Assembly (NCBI GenBank): GCA_021904315.1
Contig: CM038912.1
Span: 9,449,061 to 9,513,060, forward strand
Source: Sphagnum magellanicum
Taxonomy: Eukaryota > Streptophyta > Sphagnopsida > Sphagnales > Sphagnaceae
Direction: 5' to 3'
Length of the DNA: 64,000 nt
A model generated the notes under the pieces. It did no database searches. It worked only from the letters and a program-made list of their open reading frames with translations, and had not been told where the DNA came from. Numbering within the stretch: position 1 is the first letter of the stretch; each line of letters starts with the position of its first letter. A program made the position numbers and the translations under genes. Shown in pieces: positions 6,559 to 53,045 of the stretch.

Positions 6559-7249
6559 TTACCCCCCCTATATGTATTTGGATTCCATCTTCAAAATCCT
6601 ATGATTGGTATAATACATAACTATATTAACATAAATAATTATTATTATGTATGGACTGGACTACATGTTCCTCTTGATTTTCTACTATAGTTACATATTC
6701 TATAGCATAATTCCCTAAGTTGTGGATTGCTCCCCTTCCGCTATAGATAACCCTTGATTCTAAGGTTGAATATGTTGATGCAATGGTGTTGTGCATCTAC
6801 AGCAACCTCTTTGTGACCATTATCACCTTCATCTAGGGATGTGGTTGATGTTGTAGTAGATGTACCAAATTTTGTTGATTAACATATAATCGGTGTTGTT
6901 GCATACTTAGTTGATTATGTAAGTGTAGATATATGTTGTGATTGCTCCTATACTTATGTGGCTACCACCTTAGTTTGGTCTACTGGGTGAACATATTTTT
7001 CTTGCTCCCCAAGAATCTCCTCTATGGCAATTCCTCTTTACATTTCTTCAGGTACTATTGATTGCACTTCATGTGCTTCTCCATAACATTGATGACAGCA
7101 TAAAAGGGGTAGAAGGTAGATTGGGCACAAATTATATTCAATAGTTTGTGTAGTGAGCTAGATCGGTGGTATAAATATGTTAAGGAAAGTAAAGGGGATA
7201 AGAAAGATACTTATTAATTTGCATTGGTATTGGCAAAATATTTCAGTAT

Positions 7250-9240
7250 CTATTTGTGCATCAAAAGGAGAATCCACAGAACCCACCAACCAAGGTTAAA
7301 AGAACTAAGGAGATGTAGACAACACTAGAGAATGGAAAGAAAGTTGCAGCAAACTTTCCAATAAGTGCTTTTAAGAAGAAGAACATAATTGAGGAAGGAG
7401 GAACCTTAGGCTTAGGAGTGAAAAGGGAGTAGGAGAGCGTAGATTTAAAGGCACATAAAATGATGAGGGGTAGAGTGGAACCATCTGCAGTGCCAACAAT
7501 GGTACATGTAGCTAAATAGATTACAGAAATACCACTAATGAGAACTCCACAATAAACACATTTACAAAAGTAGAAGCAAGAGGTACCATAGTTGACAGCT
7601 CCATGGAGAAATAGTTGAAGGAATAGAGCCATGAAGTTAAGAGGGAACATGACACAAGGTTTCTAGAGGGTGAAAAACATCTACACTTTGATGCAAATGT
7701 ATATGAAAATTGGGTGGAGACCACTACAAGTCCACATCATTTGCAACATTTGGAACAACATTTGCAATAACAAAAATAGTAAACACATGAAGGTTTACAT
7801 GATATTAAACTATAGATGGAGAGAGTGGTGACACAACCTGTTTTTGAAGAGTTCAAACCAACAAAACTATAGTACCACCTAATAGACCATAATCTCCAGA
7901 GGGATTCCCATTTGAATTTGAACTAGGGAAAAGAATGGTGTAGGAGTTGGGATCATATGTAGAAGGATCTATAGATCTTACAACATAGACAAGTACACCA
8001 AAGTTTGTGGAGGAGGTAGCTACAGAAGTAATGAAAACAGATAAGGCACCTAAGTTATTTCAAACCATGGCAACTGTGAGTCTAAATATGGGGAATTTGA
8101 CTCTAGAGGTAAACACTTTGAAGACTAAATTGGCTATAAAGGAGAAGGAGAAGGTAGTGTTATAGGACAAATTGGATAAGGAAAGAGATTTCCAAAAGGG
8201 GTATAAGCATAATGTGGAAATTTGGAGGAAGTATAGGGTAGAGGTTGAGTAGAAGATTAAAGTGCTCATTAAAAAACTGCAAGATGCGAATGAGGAGCTC
8301 AAGGGTAGCACAACAGGGTTGAAATCATAGGATGAAGAATTGAAAGATTTAACGCAAAAGATTACAATCTAGGAAACCATAGAGAGGAAGTGGACAGAGG
8401 CATTGTTTCTTCATAAAAAACAACATGAGGTTTTGGATAGTCAAGTGAAAGCACTAACTAAGGAAAATAAGGAGAAGGAAAATGTTTTGACATATTTGGA
8501 ATTGATAAATTAGAAGAATGTATTTCTATTGCAATCTAAGGAGCTTAGAAAAAAGACAACAAAGGCAGAAAGAAAGAAGTTAATGAAGGACAAAGAGTAT
8601 CAGAGAAATCTACAACACTCATAAACACAGCTGGAGATGGCACAGAAATAGGGGAAGAATTTAGATCCAGCTAGTGTCAAGAAAAGACGAAAGGATTATG
8701 AACAGATGTTGAAGTACTATACCTTGATGAGGACAAAAAACAAGATGAAGGATTTTGAGGCAAAATATGAGGAATGGTGGGAGGTTATAGAGGAATATTT
8801 TACAAAGGAGTTGGAGAAGAATCTGGCTCAGTATAGAACTAATGAACAAATTCTGAAGTATAAGTTGGAAGCTTATCAACAGAATTTTCCAGATTTCATC
8901 ATGGTAGTCAAACAAATACAAAGGTATCGAGCCAAGATGAAGAGACATAAACAAGGCCTAATGGAACAATTCAGGAGGAAGAAATGCAAACTATGGAACC
9001 ACATGACCTTAGAAGTAGAGCAGCTCAGGAGGAGGAGGTATAACCAAATAAACCATAGGACTTTAGAGGAGGGGGTCAAGAAAAGAAAATTATAGAGAAT
9101 TCAAGAACAAGAAAAGGTGGAGGCTATTTTAGCATTAGAAAAGAGGTATCCAAAATATAGTGTTTGGAAATAGAACCACAAATTGAATTAGTGGGGAAGG
9201 AAAACAAAATTGTTTAGTCATAAGTAGATATAGAACCATT
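7250..9240 (+). pseudogene. Fossil coiled-coil reading frame beside the LTR, probable retroelement antisense ORF
   Basis: One plus-strand frame keeps coding character across most of about 2 kb: a basic, polar N-terminal part followed by a long heptad-type coiled-coil rich in Lys, Glu, Gln and Leu. The longest unbroken part is 8,706-9,095 (129 codons). I do not recognise the product. It is broken, with roughly a dozen or more interruptions, nearly all of one kind that fits decay of methylated cytosines. It lies on the strand opposite to the Ty3/gypsy remains, just inside the putative 3' LTR. This is where some large plant Ty3/gypsy lineages carry an antisense ORF. The link is inference; it could be an unrelated insertion. 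The hydrophobic minus-strand ORFs here are shadows. Confidence 0.55.
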
Positions 9241-27500: not shown

Positions 27501-27976
27501 TTCAAATACTAGGTTGCCTTGTGGTCTACCAATAAATGCTTCCCAAGGTTCCATAACTATTGCAAATGATGTCTTATACCTTGTAGGCCATTCCTTGTCT
27601 TGGGTATTTTTGACATAGTATATTGTACTCTTTATAGAATGTGAAATTATGCTACATCATTTAACAATAATAGTTATTATTCTACTACATTCTTTTCTTC
27701 ATTTTGTTGAATTGCAATTTGATTTAGTTGTCTTTGTAGACTTCGAGTCACCACGTGATTCATGTTTATTCCCGTTCTAACACTCTTTTTTGGAAAAAAA
27801 AAATGTTACAAATTTAAATCCTTATAATAGTTGTTTTGTTCAAATCTAAATCTTGACAACTTCTTAACCAATTTTGAATCTATAAAACCAGAGAAAACAA
27901 AAAAATCTCTCACAATAACAGTTTTATGCTTATCACAAAAAAAATCATAGAAGCTTGAATTTTATACCCCAAATTC
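24567..27976 (-). mobile_element. Ty3/gypsy fossil: gag-side internal region
   Basis: Minus-strand frames include a zinc-knuckle-like segment (YHRTHHNVETC, then CHVCG) near 25,290-25,460, of the kind found at the C-terminus of gypsy gag, and a gag-like segment at 26,031-26,366. The region runs up to the primer-binding-site-like sequence beside the right LTR. It is broken in many places. It shares strand and order with the reverse transcriptase at 20.2-21.9 kb, so both are taken as one element split by CACTA element B. Confidence 0.7.
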
Positions 27977-27999
27977 ATTTCCCGGGGATGGTCACCAAA
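27977..27999 (-). other. Primer-binding-site-like sequence
   Basis: Directly inside the right LTR the minus strand reads TTTGGTGACCATCCCCGGGA, which resembles the TTTGGCG..C...CCGGGGA sequence that follows 5' LTRs in plant Ty3/gypsy elements. It fixes the LTR edge at 28,000 and the minus-strand orientation. Confidence 0.6.
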
Positions 28000-28496
28000 T
28001 GATAAATGCTAATATTCTAACATTGTTTTGTTTTGAAATTCTATACGTAACTTGTTATTTTCAAACATATAGAGTCTATATAACAACTATAGAAATCAAA
28101 AGTAAAACTCAACACAAAATGCATCATAAAATACATATCTACGCAATTATTGCCTTTGTAGTGATTTGAAAATGGAATCAGACCATATCATATTGGGAAA
28201 AAACAAAAAAATGAAACAAAATTACATTGTAGTATCAATGTTCTTCTCCATCAAAACTGATTTATAACTCCAGCATGCGCTTCCCCATCTTTCTCAAAAC
28301 TACTTAATGTTTTTCATGATCATAATTCTTCTAATGTTCCAATGTCTAGCCATTTACAGAACTTCTTTAAAAATCCTCCTCAGGTTCCCAACATAAGCTT
28401 CAATTCAAAACTCTTCTTAAGTCTTAATCAACTCACTTACTTTCTCTTGTTACTCCTCTGTCTAAGCACCATCTAATAAATTTATTGGTTCTAACA
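28000..28496 (-). mobile_element. LTR-like sequence (right, 5' LTR of Ty3/gypsy fossil)
   Basis: Plus-strand edges TGATAAATG and TTCTAACA give TG...CA ends. It is homologous to 6,024-6,558 in the same orientation and is followed on its internal side by the primer-binding-site-like sequence and gag remains. The outer edge is less certain because the two copies diverge over their last 50-80 bases. If both belong to one element, its span of about 22.5 kb includes at least four later insertions (about 6.7 kb together). Confidence 0.65.
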
Positions 28497-28918
28497 CAAA
28501 GCACCTCATGTCTTCCCCAACTATGATCATACTGGGTCATGAGTTTCTCTTCTTTAGGAGGGTATTGCCTTGCTTAGTTTATTGGCCTTGCCTACCAAGG
28601 CAAGGATATTGTGTTTAGATTCATTAGAGAGTATAGTAGCTTAAGGGATTTTGGCCCTTAAGTAATAGGTCTATTTTGATATGAGGATTTTTGAAACTTG
28701 ATGTTTGGGCTTGTGTTGAAACTTGAGATTAGATACAGAGTTATAGTATCTTGAAGGCTTTTGGTTTCTTTTAGAGGTTTTTTGGAAGATTATATTTTTG
28801 CATGGTGAAAAATTTGAGTTTCCATAATTCTTCTTCCTTTGTCTTAAGATACTTTTTAATGTAAATTGCAAGGCCACAGTGTGACACACCCCCTGTTTCT
28901 CTTCCTGCTAATGCATTG

Positions 28919-45978: not shown

Positions 45979-46013
45979 ATGGGACATGTTTAGAATCTAT
46001 AATCTAGGAAAAA

Positions 46014-46281
46014 AGAAGTTGTGCAACAATATGTCTTGCAAAATGAAAATAGTAGGATTTAGTCCCAACCATTAAACAAGGAGTTAGTCCTTGTAGTAAG
46101 ACTCACTTTGAGTTGGTTTTGAAGTTTAACCTTCATAAAGAAGTTGTGTAACAATATGTTTTGTATAAAGAAAATATTAAGAGTTAGTCCTATCCATTAA
46201 ACAAGGAATCAATCCTTGGAGTAAGACTCATTTTGCATTGGTTTTGAAGTTTAACCTTCATAAACAAGTTGTGTAACAATA
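46014..46281 (+). repeat. ~124-bp tandem array, left part, split by element D
   Basis: Units begin GAAGTTGTG(C/T)AACAATATGT at 46,014 and 46,137, and a third starts at 46,263 and is cut off at AACAATA by the element. Each contains GAGTTAGTCC, TAAACAAGGA, TTTGA(G/T)TTGGTTTTGAA and TTTAACCTTCATA. The array resumes at 52,524. Confidence 0.85.
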
Positions 46282-46899
46282 CACTAGAAGAAAATTGGGA
46301 TTTTGTAACCAACAAATTTGCGACTAGTTGCGACTATTTGACATTTACAACTATTGTTGGTTATATCTACAACTACTTTTTGCATTTGAAGCCGCTTACA
46401 ACTACTCTATGACTAACTTACGACTAATGGATTTTTTCATCCTTTCATTTGGATAGTTTTCAATACAATTTCCATCCAAGAAGACCCCTCTACCTACCAT
46501 TAGTTGCAAATGTCACCAAATGAGTCATAGCCCTGTGAGATTCCAAATGTATTATACATATTTTAGGCATAAGGGGTCCACAATTGTGTATTGAATGTAT
46601 TCTACTCATTATTATATGGGTACATATTAAGATGTACCCATATATTACTGGTTATGTATAATGGTTGTATTTAAATTGTATGTAAATTGTATTTGAAGCA
46701 TACTTGAATATGTATTGCATACATCACCTTAGTTTTTGTCTAGTTTATTTATGTCAAATTTGTTTAAAATAATATACAGATTATACCCAAGTCATATTAC
46801 ATGCCTTATGTGGTTTTCCAAATTAGTGTTCCAATATATTTGCCCAGATTTATGTGTTGCAGTCTAATAGGGGACAACACCTAAGGAAGTTATGGACTT

Positions 46900-47532
46900 G
46901 GTAGAATTATGCTAACCCATGTCAAGCATTTTGAGTGGTTTTAAGTCTACTGGGCCCTAGTTGAAGAAAGTTGTTGTTTCTGTTGTTGCAGCTTGTGAGA
47001 TGGGATAGGCATACGTGCGGAAAGTAGGGTGCAAATAATTTTCAACATTGAATATGTATCACATTCTTAAAACAACAGGAAAACTTTGACCACAATTTCA
47101 GCAAGCACCCAAAAGGGATAGCTAATGAATACCTAGTCTCCTGATTCAATCTGCAACTAACATCTGTGAGAGTGAGTTAAAATGGAAATGAATCTTGTCT
47201 GAAAATAAACACTTTTGCAAGGGAAAACCAATCCATTGATGCAAATCACTAGGAAGTCAAACAATGCTCAATCAAGTACACATACTATTCTGACAATAAA
47301 CTGTAAACACACATACAAATCTGGTTGCATTACAGATTCCGACGAGATTTCAGTGTAGAATGCTCTCAGAGTACCAACTCTATATGAAAAGAAACTAATG
47401 TTCTTGCAATTTTGACTACTTTTATTTGTACAAATCTTTAGAATACTCTCTTGTGCAAGCCTTCAACAATGGGCAGACACAGTCTGTTGTAATACCCATT
47501 CAAAGAGAAGTGTCGTTCAAACAATTGCCATG
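46900..47532 (-). other. Probable captured 3' flank of the HIR copy
   Basis: Less AT-rich sequence following the HIR stop codon up to about 46,900, beyond which the CACTA subterminal sequence begins. It is likely the 3' UTR and downstream DNA carried along with the gene. No separate gene seen. Confidence 0.4.
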
Positions 47533-49125
47533 TTAATTCATATGGCCAGCTTGCCTTTGCAGTAAACCATTACGGGTTTGCTCTGCAACATCACGCACAG
47601 CACCAGGACCATGTGGGATGAACACCGTGGAGTTCCTGGAGCTTGCATCGATTTCTTTCATTGTGTCAAAGTACTGTGTCACCAACACCATGTCCATAAC
47701 TTCCTTAGGTGTTGTCCCTGGAACATTGTGTGAGAAGGCTAAAACACTCTCCCACAAGCCATCAACAATTGCCTGACGCTGACGTGCAACACCCACTCCT
47801 GAAAGATACTTTGCCTTTGCCTCCCCCTCTGCTCGCTTCACCTAAAGAGTTTTCTTTGCCTTTGCCTTTTCCCGAGTGGCCACCTTCAACCTTGCAGCTG
47901 CAATCAAGAAAAAGTGCACTTATTTGGTTCACAGATCTTCACAATCTATAAAATTGCAGGTTCATTCAAGATAGTTCTAGTCAAGAAAAACTTGACTTGC
48001 TGAAGAAGACCATCTCTCTCTCCTGATTTGTATCAATTACTAAGTTGACATCAATTTCCATTAGAGAATAGATCTTGAAGAGCATCCAATTTAACATTGA
48101 ACTGGAGCATGGGACAAAAAGACATAAGAGAGAGACATGAGTCTCCTCACCTACATTGATTTCGTTCATGGCCCGCTTGACAGTCTCATCAGGTTCAATG
48201 TCAACAATGAGAGTCTGCACAATCTCATACCCATAATTCCGCATGGCCTGTAATATTTTTGTCAGCAAAAAATAAACTGTCAGAATCATCTATTAATTGC
48301 TACATATACCCACATCTTCCATTACTCCAGCTAGGGTTGGAGAACTGAAAGCATTCTCAAACTGCTGCCAGGTGAAACAAAAATGATTGTTATAAAAAAG
48401 GAATAAAGAAAATTGACCTTCTCAAGTTCTTCTTCCACGTTCTTTGCAATGTCATTCTTCTGCTGAAAAACATCATCAAGAAGCATCCTTCGTACACTGG
48501 CCCGCACAACTGCTCACAAACAAACAACAGCATTCTGTTCAAAATTGAAACCTGATCACATGAGGAACACATATATATATGTCTATATAGTTGCCATTTT
48601 GCTTAAACATAAGGCCTACTCATTGAAATCCGATACCAATTACATCAATTGTTTGCAACAAGGACTGCTATACTTAGCATCAAATACATATGATTTGATT
48701 TGTTCCCGTGGATTCGTGAGCTTATAGAAGGCATCTTTAGCAGTCTCAATGTGTGCTCGATATTGCACTGATGCCACCACAGTCACAAAGACATTGTCCT
48801 GAACATCACAGACACACAAACCCCACAATTCCTACCCCTGAGCTTTGATTCATCCTCACAAGACCACTGATAAAAGATCCAAGCAGGCAGGCAGGTGGGT
48901 GGGCGGGGGAGAGGGGGAAAAAAAACAACACCAGACCTTGCTCTTGGTTTTGCATTGGACATCAAGCTGCTAGATGCGAAGGGACAAAACACCTGCAACA
49001 TTGACACTACAGAACCATGGGACACAATGGCAACCAGGGCTAAGCACAATACTAAATTTTCCGAATTTTTCCTTGATAGCAACAATGGATTTGTCCACCT
49101 AGTATAAACCACACACCCGCCCCAT
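47533..49125 (-). pseudogene. HIR (hypersensitive-induced reaction, SPFH domain) gene copy, full length, decayed
   Basis: HIR proteins are plasma-membrane SPFH/prohibitin-type scaffold proteins linked to plant defence. Five exons on the minus strand: 49,125-48,937 (starts MGRVCGLY; Gly2 for myristoylation, Cys5; then [10 protein letters not shown] and PGCHCVPW), 48,798-48,678 ([15 protein letters not shown]), 48,509-48,418 (DDVFQQKNDIAK), 48,247-48,151 ([23 protein letters not shown]) and 47,897-47,533 ([40 protein letters not shown]). Together they make 287 codons plus a stop, the usual length. Defects: TAG at codons 9 (49,099-49,101), 52 (48,970-48,972) and 185 (47,842-47,844), each where HIR relatives have Gln, and intron 2 starts CTAAGT, not GTAAGT. 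All other junctions are GT/AG. No frameshift is seen. It cannot be translated as a whole as it stands. Confidence 0.9.
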
Positions 49126-49269
49126 GTCTCCTCCACCCCACCAGGTTTGAGATCTGCACAACACAACAACAACAACCCATTTTCAACACTCAGATGATGC
49201 ACCAAAATTTGGCATAAGTAAGAAGACTTAAACCCCATCAGTCCCTAAACCCTAAACCCTAAACCCTAA
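49126..49269. promoter_or_regulatory. Short head-to-head spacer with telomere-like repeat
   Basis: Only 144 bases separate the HIR start codon (minus) from the DUF639 exons (plus). The right half contains four tandem CCCTAAA-type units (about 49,242-49,269). In plants telo-boxes (AAACCCTAA) occur in promoters; here the repeat may also mark the join between two captured fragments. A promoter function is inference. Confidence 0.4.
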
Positions 49270-50300
49270 ATGGGGTGCTATGAAGTTGACATTCTTGTGG
49301 GCTTGTTGGGATGCAGTATTGAACCTGTAGTGCTGGAGTTCCTTGAATTGACATGGTGCACCCGTCGGGACTATTGGCTTGCAATTATCCAGGAAGTGAT
49401 TGCTACTCACCAATTTATTCGTACATTCCAGTTGGAGGGTGTCGATAAAGCTAAAGCTCTAGCAAAAGCAGTGTTGGGTATTGCTCGCTTGAGAGCCACA
49501 AGGGAAACTTCACATGTCTTGCCACCAAAACCAGAAACCTTGCTTACATATTACTGGGGAGAGGAAATGCCTGCTGGGGACTTGGTATTGGCTGCGTTAG
49601 CAAACACCTTGCATCATCTGGAGGTGTCAACAAGCAAGCAGTTACAGATCTTGATATCAACCAAGGTGGTCGGATTTATGCCAACTCAGCAGAATCTATT
49701 GTAGCCAGCTTTGGATCTTCACCTCTGAAAGGAGTTGATAAAGGCAAAGAGGCATCTGTTCCTATTGGTGAGGTCTTCATAGGTGAGATGACTCCTTTAG
49801 AAAAGGCAATTGTGCAATCATGGGATAACAGCAAAATAGTTATGCTTGCACAAGCAATAATAGAGGGGGTGCGAGTTGAGGGCATTGGCACAAACCTTGC
49901 AGTCTTGAGGTATATTACATTTCTTTCAAGGGAGGATATAACATGGATGAGGTATCTTCCTTTGTTCTGCTGCTAAGCAAACAATATGTTGTGTGACAAT
50001 GTTTGACCAGACTAGTATGGCTCCTCCTGCAAGTGGATTAATGATGTTTAGTGGTTTTCTTCTATCTGTTTCCAGGAATTGTTTTCTCTTTTGATAGTTT
50101 CTATCACATGGCTTCAATCAGTTCTAGTATGGGAGGAGCCCTTATTATCTACCACTTTATGTGTGATTGTTTCATACATTATCTATAGGTGTTATTTTCT
50201 TTACCTTATTATTGTTGACACAGTTGTTTCTATTAAGAACTGGTTGAATGAAGTTAGTTTCGTAAGGAGTCTTCTGCCTACTGTGAGAAATCGAATGGGA
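49270..50300 (+). pseudogene. DUF639-family gene fragment (C-terminal exons)
   Basis: Plants encode a family of membrane proteins with domain DUF639, function unknown. The first block (49,270 to about 49,605) holds the family's conserved stretch: CSIEPVVLEFLELTWCTRRDYWLAI, split here as CSIEPVVLE, LELTWCTRR and DYWLAI, then HQFIRTF and LGIARLRATRE. The frame shifts at about 49,600-49,650 and coding continues in the next frame to 49,909 (RIYANSAESIV, GEMTPLEKAI, EGIGTNLAVL), ending at a GTATAT donor. The next exon begins near 50,096 and runs to 50,300 (SITWLQSVLVWEEPLLS, VSYIIYR, a membrane segment), with a stop after NRMG. The N-terminal exons are missing, so it is truncated. The ATG at 49,270 is not the native start. 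It lies head to head with the HIR copy in element D. Confidence 0.8.
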
Positions 50301-50742
50301 TAAAAGCTAGCATCTGTTTAATTCTTGCTTAGGGTTGTTGTGGTGCCATTGGTCTCAAAGACATTGGGCAAGTCTTCTTTCAGGTTTGAGTGATTTGCTT
50401 GGGCTCTTCATGGGCTATGGAGCAGGTTGTGAGGAAACAACTTGGTGGGCAAAGGCTATGAGAAAAATATTTGGGCATCTTGTATGTACCTATTTCTTAT
50501 ATAAGTTGAATTTTACCCCATGTAGGAGTTCAGAATATTAAAAATGGGATTAGGTCTAGGATGTTCACATAACTAGTTTATGAATGCCAGTCTAAAAGTT
50601 GATGAAATCAAGGTTAATTTGAGAGTTCTGAACCTTGGTCCAAAAATGATTTTTGTGTAACCCAACCCTGCACTATGATGGTGAGCCTCTGCAGGATATC
50701 ATGTTCTTGAACATATCAGGTGGAATTTGTGGATGGGTGTAG
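50301..50742 (+). other. Intron-like or unassigned sequence between captured fragments
   Basis: A coding-like patch at 50,335-50,500 is broken in all frames and I could not assign it to DUF639 or to the COP9 subunit. It ends in a usable acceptor (GGTGTAG) at 50,742, where the COP9 exon starts. It may contain decayed exons of either gene. Confidence 0.35.
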
Positions 50743-51384
50743 ACAATGGAGGCAAAGTGGATATCAATGGACCATGTGGCACATATCAAGCCTTCCGATG
50801 GGAACTCAGCTGCTACACAATGTAACTTCTTATCATTTCTTAGCCAATATACTTTCTAAGTTGAAAACTGAAAGAACACTTTTAGACTGTTTTGCTAAGA
50901 GAATCAAGTTGTTGGTTATGTAGTTCTCAGAGTTACAGAGTTTTTGAGGTTTCAAATTAGAAACCTTTTGATTGAATTGTCATGCTTGCTACTGATGGGA
51001 GAGCTTTGTGGGCCCCCTAGAGGAAATGTAGCGGCAGCCCATTTGACAGGTATGCACAGTGCCATAAAGATGTTAAACAATCGCATCAGAATTCTACACC
51101 ACCATCTTGTGTCTATTCAGAAAGGTATGTGACTCACCCTGTGTCACCCCATATGCATTCATCCACTCAAGTGTTGTATAACATTATGCCATGAGCATGT
51201 GGCCTTTTGGAGATACACTTCTTAATTCCTTTCATCAGTAGATAATTGAGCTTTCGTACTGATTATGAAGATTGTTTGTATAGGAAAAGCTCCATATGAC
51301 CATTCACTTCTACGGCAAGTTTCTAGCCTAATTTGCAGACTACCTGCAATTGATTCTTCAAGATTTCAGGATGATTTTCTCATG
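50743..51384 (+). pseudogene. CSN6: COP9 signalosome subunit 6 (CSN6) fragment, three exons
   Basis: CSN6 is the catalytically inactive MPN-domain subunit of the COP9 signalosome, which removes NEDD8/RUB from cullins. Three collinear exons with good splice sites: 50,743-50,821 (TMEAKWISMDHVAHIKPSDG, NSAATQ), 51,032-51,124 (AAHLTGMHSAIKMLNNRIRI, LHHHLV) and 51,284-51,384 (PYDHSLLRQVSSLICRLPAI, FQDDFLM), the last ending at GTATGT. They correspond to the end of the MPN domain and the following helical region. The exons have no stops. The N-terminal half and the final exon (expected to start EYNDTLL) are absent, so it is a fragment from the middle of the gene. Introns are retained, showing genomic capture. 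Confidence 0.87.
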
Positions 51385-51840
51385 GTATGTACTCATTTGA
51401 GGTGGGTTGAGCATTGGTTTCACGTGTCAACCTCACAATCTGTGTATCACTTTACTCAAACGATAGAAACATTGGTGAATTCTTTGTGAATGTAGGTCAT
51501 GATGGGGCCGTTAGTGCCAGGGTTGATGGCACATGTGAACAGTGCAATGACGCACTTGGTGTTGGATATCCAAACATCTATTTGCTCCCTTTTGGACTTG
51601 GATCATCTAGTTATTCAAGTTAAGTATTGTTGATTACATTAAGGTAGGAACCCATGTTCAATACAAAACATTTTTCCATCCTTGCAAAACTTAATGTGAG
51701 TGTGCTCACGGAGTTTTTATTAGCTCAATGGAAACAATTTTCCATGTCCATTTTGTGTGTGATTAGTGAGCCATGGTAACCCTAACCCTAAAACATTGTT
51801 AATTAAACCCTAAAATGTTAACCTCAATTCATAATGTTAA
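51385..51840 (+). other. Possible further captured exon, unidentified
   Basis: After an acceptor-like TGAATGTAG at about 51,496 an open stretch to about 51,625 could encode MMGPLVPGLMAHVNSAM and onward in one frame. Another frame gives a 69-codon ORF (51,414-51,623). Neither matches the missing CSN6 exon and I recognise neither. Telomere-like TAACCCTAACCCTAAAA lies at about 51,778. Confidence 0.3.
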
Positions 51841-52523
51841 ACTAAGGTCCATTATTCCTTTTCAATAAAAATATTTTCCAAATTATTTAACATCGCCATG
51901 TGGCAAGTTTATATTCTTCGATCTTTAAAAGATGTGGCAAATTTGAAATTTCCATTCAAATAATAATGTGACACGTGTCAAGATCCTCATTCTTGACATT
52001 TGATGAATGGGATATATCTAGGGTTTTTTAATAAATATTCAAATGTCATGATGCTCATAATGAGACATGGGCACATTTCGATTAGCCAAACACAAAAGAC
52101 GTGGCCATTTCTTAGCCATAAGATTTAGAAAATTCTAGATCATCCAATATCACAATCTAGTTTCCCAAATATTAGAAACCATGCCATGTGGCAACAACCC
52201 ATTAGTTAATCGAAAGTATTTCAAGAGTTAACATGTGTCTCCACATGGTTGGAGTTTGGATCCACCAAAATAGTTGCAATTTATAGTTGCAAAATGATGC
52301 CTTGTATACATTATGTATATATTGGCCCCATCGGATGAAACAATATATACTAAATGTAGGCTTCATCTACCATTTGATGACATCATCCTGATGTAATGTT
52401 TTGTGACTATTTGTCGTATGTGACTTGTCTTAGGCTACTATTAAACAGTTAGTTGTAAAATGTCTCTTTCGATTAAAAAACAGTCGTAAACACCAATTGT
52501 AAATAAAGATTTTTCTTCTAGTG
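51841..52523. other. Right subterminal region of element D
   Basis: AT-rich, with CCATGTGGCAA and GACACGTGTCAA-like phrases also found near the right parts of elements B and C, then TAGTTGCAA / TAGTTGTAAAA / CAGTCGTAAA motifs and the terminal repeat. No genes. Confidence 0.6.
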
Positions 52524-53045
52524 AATATGTCTTGTAAAAAGAAAATATTAGGAGTTAGTCCTATCCACTAAACAAGGAGTCAGTCCCTAGAGTAGGATTC
52601 ATTTTGAGTTGGTTTTGAAATTTAACCTTCATAAAAAAGTTGGGTAACAATGTCTTGCCAAAAAAGAATATTAGGAATCAATCCCAACCATTAAATAGGA
52701 AGTTAGTCCTATCCATTAAACAAGGAGTTAGTCCCAACCACTAAATAAGGAGTTAGTCCTATCCATGTAAACAATGAGTTGGTCCTTGGAGTAAGATTCA
52801 CTTTGAGTTGGTTTTGAAATTTAACCTTCATATTCTAAGTACCTTTAGTAACTAAAGCCATGCACCCATTCAACTCTCGAGATTCATAGCATGCCATTGT
52901 TCAAAATTGCGCTTGACAAACAACATAATAAACACACAATTGAACCAAACATTTAAGGTCTAAATGAAATAAACTCAAAATATTAGATAATTCAAATATT
53001 CATGTATTTCCTGAGTGGATTCATGCTTCATTTTTTTCATTATCC
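52524..53045 (-). repeat. Array continuation and dispersed repeat, copy 2
   Basis: 52,524-52,835 continues the ~124-bp array split by element D, with an extra local reshuffle of the TTAGTCC(T/C)A...AAACAAGGAG sub-motif near 52,675-52,770. The following part, read on the minus strand, matches 40,160-40,440: GAGTTGAATGGGTGC, GGTTCAATTGTGTGTTTATTA and a GAATCCACTCAGGAAATAC-like segment. The two copies are inverted relative to each other about 12 kb apart. Confidence 0.75.

Follow-up and report, generated by a model that had tools for sequence, protein, structure and literature searches.

A non-autonomous Pack-CACTA-type element with DNA of at least four host genes in the peat moss Sphagnum magellanicum

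Multi-gene capture by CACTA transposons is known. According to the parts of the reports cited here and below, the soybean CACTA element Tgm-Express1 (5.7 kb) carries five host-gene fragments (PMC1947982), single Pack-CACTA elements of Arabidopsis and maize hold several loci (PMC8903248, PMC13317346), and elements or families that encode transposase also contain host-gene pieces in grapevine (Cactavine; PMC2528002) and Chenopodium (PMC8978399). The peat-moss genome paper ranks CACTA among the top two repeat types by abundance, at 6.8% (PMC9946827). Here, we analysed a 64,000-nucleotide stretch of S. magellanicum DNA (contig CM038912.1, positions 9,449,061 to 9,513,060), hereafter the window, in which a 6,242-bp Pack-CACTA-like element occupies exactly positions 46282–52523. 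We are highly confident that this element is a non-autonomous Pack-CACTA-type member of one CACTA family, with DNA of at least 4 unrelated host genes (HIR, DUF639, CSN6, and an IPI1/TEX10-like gene), introns included, between conserved ends.

Comparison with the described systems, as far as the cited parts of the reports go, revealed that (i) like Tgm-Express1, the window element has CACTA-type ends around exon- and intron-containing fragments of several unrelated host genes, but it resides in a moss, holds 4 recognised pieces, contains all coding exons of one gene, and has many differently mixed sisters; (ii) like the Pack-CACTA elements of Arabidopsis and maize, it is non-autonomous, contains captured coding DNA, and has conserved ends around an acquired interior (PMC8903248, PMC13317346), but its host lies outside the flowering plants, and the sister elements whose bounds could be set (4.2–9.6 kb) are strongly mosaic. 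The initial annotation of the window had regarded a multi-gene load as unusual for a CACTA element, which the soybean, maize, and Arabidopsis cases contradict; what is new is this family, which is also rich. Among the titles listed in a literature search, none concerned transposon gene capture in Sphagnum or CACTA capture in a moss or other bryophyte, and for CACTA in Sphagnum only the genome paper was relevant, which is not proof of absence in print. With this element, the capture of several genes by CACTA transposons is now recorded from a peat moss as well.

Ends, insertion site, and cargo

The element is bounded by 13-bp terminal inverted repeats, CACTAGAAGAAAA at 46282–46294 on the plus strand and its perfect complement (13 of 13 positions) on the minus strand at 52511–52523, which reads TTTTCTTCTAGTG on the plus strand. 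Both repeats start with CACTA, as is characteristic of the CACTA (En/Spm) superfamily. They are flanked by a 4-bp target site duplication, AATA, at 46278–46281 and 52524–52527. The element interrupts a tandem-repeat array as one unit: a 125-bp tandem repeat adjoins the insertion (46012–46281), and the 2 flanks, joined with one AATA removed, closely match the unit at 46148, which represents the empty site. Of the motif CRACTA, in either orientation, the first 300 bp (46282–46581, plus strand) contain 8 copies, the last 300 bp (52224–52523, minus strand) 3, and the 5,642-bp interior also 3, with 88 copies in the whole window; the 3 motifs at the 3′ end have the same orientation relative to their own end as most of those at the 5′ end. 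This enrichment corresponds to the repeated subterminal motifs of the superfamily. The 5′ subterminal region is part of a module of about 593 bp that is common to many relatives. The CACTA-type ends, subterminal motifs, 4-base duplication, and pre-insertion sequence described in the initial annotation were thus all recovered at exact coordinates. Its statement that the element lacks a transposase also held, with a best tblastn E value of 0.83 inside the element for 4 queries; as a control, the search recovered the giant element described below, from which 2 of the 4 queries were derived.

As in other Pack-CACTA and Pack-TYPE elements, host coding DNA lies between the ends and has homologues elsewhere in the genome. 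All 5 coding exons of HIR are present on the minus strand, namely exon 1 (48937–49125, with the border taken from the exon list), exon 2 (48678–48798), exon 3 (48418–48509), exon 4 (48151–48247), and exon 5 with the stop codon (47533–47897). The gene is presumably HIR by name; its host homologue contains a Band_7 domain (Pfam E = 4.2e-30). The element had been credited with a full HIR gene copy, which is correct for the set of coding exons and incorrect for an intact gene: exon 1 contains 2 premature stops and exon 5 contains one, each a change of CAG to TAG (relative to the homologue on contig C7 in exon 1), and the donor of intron 2, which follows exon 2, is CT instead of GT.

The other 3 pieces lie on the plus strand. 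The DUF639 piece (49288–49910) is a fragment, in agreement with the earlier assignment, but its 2 parts (49288–49617 and 49626–49910) are in different frames; the second part matches the Pfam family DUF639 (E = 7.2e-6, 26 bits) below the curated cut-off of 37.1, and the first part gave no DUF639 match in Pfam. Three CSN6 exons (50746–50820, 51022–51126, and 51283–51384) were confirmed; joined, they match Pfam MitMem_reg (E = 6.2e-18) and the CSN6b chain 9is6_F (E = 8.8e-32). The initial count of at least 3 host genes is correct, but it overlooked a fourth piece, an IPI1/TEX10-like exon (51459–51599) that is 93% identical over 141 bp to a locus on contig C10 (L037). The Pfam Ipi1_N match on 51496–51621 (E = 2.2e-4, 22.1 bits) is below the cut-off of 24, and copies of the exon in sister elements match above it.

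Mosaic sisters and transposase-bearing relatives

The ends of the window element are common to many copies in the genome (438,994,042 bases in 31 contigs), as expected of a Pack-CACTA family. For the 3′ end, a 16-bp version has 82 exact occurrences, and for the 5′ end, a 24-bp version has 14, compared with 0 for the controls (reversed, for the 3′ end), which rules out chance ends. The first 400 bp match at least 39 further places at 94%–99% identity (best 40 of 251 candidates scored, window included), and the last 400 bp match at least 39 further places more weakly, at 88%–96% and often partially (best 40 of 530 candidates scored); these counts are lower bounds. We sampled the 20 best of the 39 other 5′-end places and one 3′-end place, a sample biased to close relatives. 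Bounds were set for 13 sisters by the terminal pattern and for 2 (L023 and L024) by 3′-end homology, and 6 were unbounded within 10 kb.

The interior of the window element is a mosaic of modules that occur singly or otherwise mixed in these sisters. With a module scored as present if more than 40% of it matched, 5 of the 15 bounded sisters had HIR with all 5 exons (with an inverted stretch in L008), 3 had DUF639, 9 had CSN6 exons, and 12 had the IPI1 exon, whereas L023 and L024 had none of these modules. The full gene set of the window element recurred only in L010 and L014, the latter without the first CSN6 exon. A genome search with 47500–48950 (HIR exons 2–5) returned 9 near-complete places, window included (1437–1452 bp), and further matches covered only one part or the other. 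The breakpoints differ by subfamily and lie near element positions 289, 427, and 593 on the left and 4355, 4496, 5149, and 5330 on the right.

Other sisters carry different gene pieces, which supports the initial reading as a Pack-CACTA-like element that captured gene fragments with their introns: L005 has a heavy-metal/copper ATPase piece (HMA and E1-E2_ATPase) in a module common to L008, L011, and L012, and L007 has an M18 aminopeptidase piece in a module common to L009 and L018. Open reading frames (ORFs) picked from L013, L020, and L029 matched no Pfam family. In addition, a 462-bp internal segment of L008 (oriented positions 1425–1886), which covers most of the HIR exon-5 region, is inverted. 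An insert of about 185 bp is common, at 93% identity, to L010 (1423–1605) and L029 (5720–5912), at different places of the element; it is flanked by 12- to 13-bp overlaps of the surrounding element and is probably a small secondary transposon.

A CACTA transposase is found in relatives that share the 5′ end of the window element. Four loci (L015, L016, L017, and L022) represent one giant element type, and the 5′ end of L015 is 97.8% identical to that of the window element. Two copies were followed to both ends, one on contig C1 (5655437–5687280, comprising L016, L031, L032, L033, and L036; 31,844 bp, target site duplication ATG) and one on contig C12 (29,419 bp, target site duplication TAG). 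The giants encode Transposase_21 (E = 1.6e-68), that is, a tnp2 transposase as found in the CACTA superfamily, together with DUF4218 and DUF4216, and a Transpos_assoc match fell under the cut-off. Their cargo comprises a HIR exon-5 piece, LRR and kinase ORFs, and a fragment that resembles chloroplast dicarboxylate transporter 2.1 (E = 1.5e-54). The giant copies compared are 99.4%–99.9% identical over long aligned blocks (11.9–17.5 kb) at different sites and have therefore moved recently. In the copy at 5.66 Mb of C1, a stop interrupts the first transposase exon; the C12 copy is missing the beginning of the transposase, and the DUF4218 frame is broken in the copy at 2.05 Mb of C1; in the C11 copy, the frames of the transposase region are open (674, 317, and 330 aa). 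Two stretches of the C12 giant (oriented positions 7043–8144 and 27776–28875) each align at 98.6%–98.8%, in inverted orientation, with the far region of the C1 copy, and the giant element thus holds a near-identical internal inverted repeat of 1.1 kb.

Like Cactavine and the Chenopodium elements, the giants combine transposase with host-gene pieces; unlike them, as far as the cited parts describe, the giant partner is 31.8 kb long and has pieces resembling at least 3 host genes. It is about 1.5 times as long as the putative autonomous soybean element Tgmt* with a tnp2-type transposase (20.5 kb; PMC2613891) and the En/Spm elements of Chondrus (16–20 kb; PMC6431247), all of which are large CACTA elements. 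The pieces recognised across the family (HIR, DUF639, CSN6, IPI1, heavy-metal ATPase, M18 peptidase, LRR kinase, and dicarboxylate transporter) are mixed in kind, as judged without a test of functional bias, and the aligned HIR copies are decaying, which does not bear out the initial suggestion that the family shuffles genes of defence and signalling.

We propose that the transposase of the relatives would recognise the common ends and move the element by cut and paste, and that the gene pieces may have been added stepwise, by 2 neighbouring insertions re-mobilised as one, by faulty repair after excision, or by both. Re-mobilisation of neighbouring insertions as one element has been modelled previously, in the parts of the reports cited (PMC8903248, PMC13317346), and conserved ends around interiors replaced at several breakpoints fit this model and post-excision repair errors alike. 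Several points weigh against this account: (i) cross-mobilisation is presumed from common ends; (ii) the capture step itself is presumed from the mosaic structure; (iii) the 3′ end of the giants is only 82%–86% similar to that of the window element, and their 3′ terminal repeat is degenerate; and (iv) a matching 3-bp duplication is missing from sisters L011 and L014. Because its 3′ end differs, the giant may not be the only source of transposase. The target site duplication is 3 bp, the length typical of the CACTA (En/Spm) superfamily, in 11 of the 13 sisters bounded by the terminal pattern and in both giants followed end to end; therefore, the 4-bp duplication of the window element is an exception in the family or an ambiguity of alignment.

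Alternatively, the window element could have arisen by internal deletion from a larger element that encoded transposase and was already gene-loaded, a reading that we regard as a real but less probable contender. Both giants carry the shared 5′ end and the HIR exon-5 piece, and L023 and L024 (4.2–4.5 kb), which look like deletion derivatives of transposase-bearing elements, retain traces of the N-terminal transposase exon (94% and 78%, respectively) about 0.7–1 kb from the 5′ end. On contig C2, matches along a region (30057599–30089092) follow one another as HIR, transposase (opposite strand), DUF639 (a scrap), CSN6, IPI1, and the exact 3′ end, an order compatible with one element of about 32 kb; it suggests that transposase elements loaded with the cargo of the window element may exist. 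However, the 5′ end of this arrangement was not among the scored matches (best 40 of 251 and best 40 of 265), the arrangement may be a cluster of elements, and the 2 giants followed end to end gave no match to DUF639, CSN6, or IPI1.

Donor genes and origin of the cargo

The host homologues of the 4 captured genes are not clustered and are found on other contigs (HIR on C7, C9, C14, and C1; DUF639 on C15, C1, and C9; CSN6 on C3; and IPI1 on C10). The possibility raised initially, that the parent genes sit together elsewhere without CACTA ends, was thus not what we found. No donor of HIR, DUF639, or CSN6 was present among the scored matches (40 of 43, 21 of 21, and 40 of 64 candidates, respectively) in an assembly that may be incomplete, and the nearest homologues are at a synonymous divergence (Ks) of 0.28–0.6. 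The Ks among the HIR copies of the elements is 0.07–0.13 (L006, with exon 1 replaced, was left out), compared with 0.58–0.59 between single copies and the C7 gene; the element consensus has a Ks of 0.53 and a nonsynonymous divergence (Ka) of 0.042 to C7. In the HIR tree, for which the C14 and C1 exons were aligned only in part, the element consensus falls outside the clade of C7, C9, and C14 (support 87 for that clade and 73 within it). The C7 gene was rejected as the direct donor on these grounds. The DUF639 and CSN6 consensuses both have a Ks of 0.28 to their nearest homologues, on C15 (Ka 0.12) and C3 (Ka 0.05), respectively, which makes these 2 genes unlikely as recent direct donors; the DUF639 figures would also allow an older capture from the C15 gene followed by neutral decay. 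The donors of HIR and CSN6 were most likely working genes near, and not identical to, the present homologues, and the IPI1 piece probably derives from the present C10 gene. An order of capture is thus readable, with IPI1 recent and HIR, DUF639, and CSN6 from donors not found now.

Lost duplicates are the simplest source of the absent donors, because duplication peaks at Ks 0.406 and 0.643 are reported for Sphagnum in the part of the genome paper cited (PMC9946827). It is also conceivable, though unlikely, that the donor genes were moved rather than copied at capture, with 2 neighbouring insertions leaving as a composite and taking the gene along, and with the empty donor locus tolerated because the moss, though haploid-dominant, has a duplicated genome. 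If true, gene removal would explain why the donors of HIR, DUF639, and CSN6, presumably working genes until shortly before the burst, are absent, whereas related copies and the probable donor of IPI1 persist; the element family would then be an agent of duplicate-gene loss. With near-identical transposase relatives, graded mosaics, and a readable capture order, both gene pick-up and the question of copying versus removal of donors become addressable across Sphagnum genomes.

The missing donors could also be explained by horizontal transfer of an already loaded element from another moss lineage, a reading that we assessed within one plant genome and consider very unlikely. The equal Ks of DUF639 and CSN6 is too large for recent capture from their nearest host homologues, but HIR is at Ks 0.53–0.61, not 0.28, the IPI1 piece is about 93% similar to a resident locus, and the published Ks peaks make lost duplicates an ordinary source.

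Decay of the captured HIR gene

The 5 fully aligned HIR copies contain 11 premature stops (3 in the window element, 2 in L005, one each in L010 and L012, and 4 in L014), with one position common to 3 copies; L006 likewise contains stops. The donor of intron 2 is not GT in any of the 6 copies. Ka/Ks is 0.41–0.67 among the copies, compared with 0.11–0.18 to the C7 gene. In the HIR exons, the C-to-T rate is 0.12 in the CG context, 0.12 in CHG, and 0.025 in CHH, and changes at A/T occur at 0.006; across the HIR region, the rates are 0.12–0.15, 0.11–0.12, and 0.023–0.025, respectively, where intronic CG comprises only 3 events. The 5′ module has corresponding rates of 0.06, 0.15, and 0.025. Judged from this spectrum, the CG- and CHG-biased decay is as would be expected of methylated DNA, and the captured genes would now be methylated, decaying pseudogenes without a cellular role.

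It is extremely unlikely that selection maintains the captured genes in a working state, for example with the HIR copy acting in defence. The consensus HIR protein of the elements is near host HIR, on a short branch, and the ratio of nonsynonymous to synonymous substitution (dN/dS) of the copies relative to the consensus, 0.57, lies close to the lower limit of a neutral simulation (mean 0.80, 2.5%–97.5% range 0.56–1.17; P = 0.029). The 11 stops are also fewer than the simulated mean of 15.9 (P = 0.068), and the consensus itself holds one stop. These values count against purely neutral decay and leave room for weak constraint on the HIR copies during part of their history. The low Ka would also follow from a donor that was still functional up to its capture. 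A functional HIR gene was rejected on the stops, the lost splice donor, and the decay spectrum, and the rise of Ka/Ks among the copies over that to the C7 gene stands against selection as well.

That no transposon is involved, and that a segmental duplication or chance inverted ends merely surround a gene cluster, is practically inconceivable, since nothing more than the presence of the genes speaks for it and it is refuted by the end counts relative to the control, the distinct sites with 3-bp duplications, and the dispersal of the homologues over different contigs.

A minor feature of the window element is a telomere-like sequence of 4 CCCTAAA units (49243–49270) between the HIR and DUF639 pieces.

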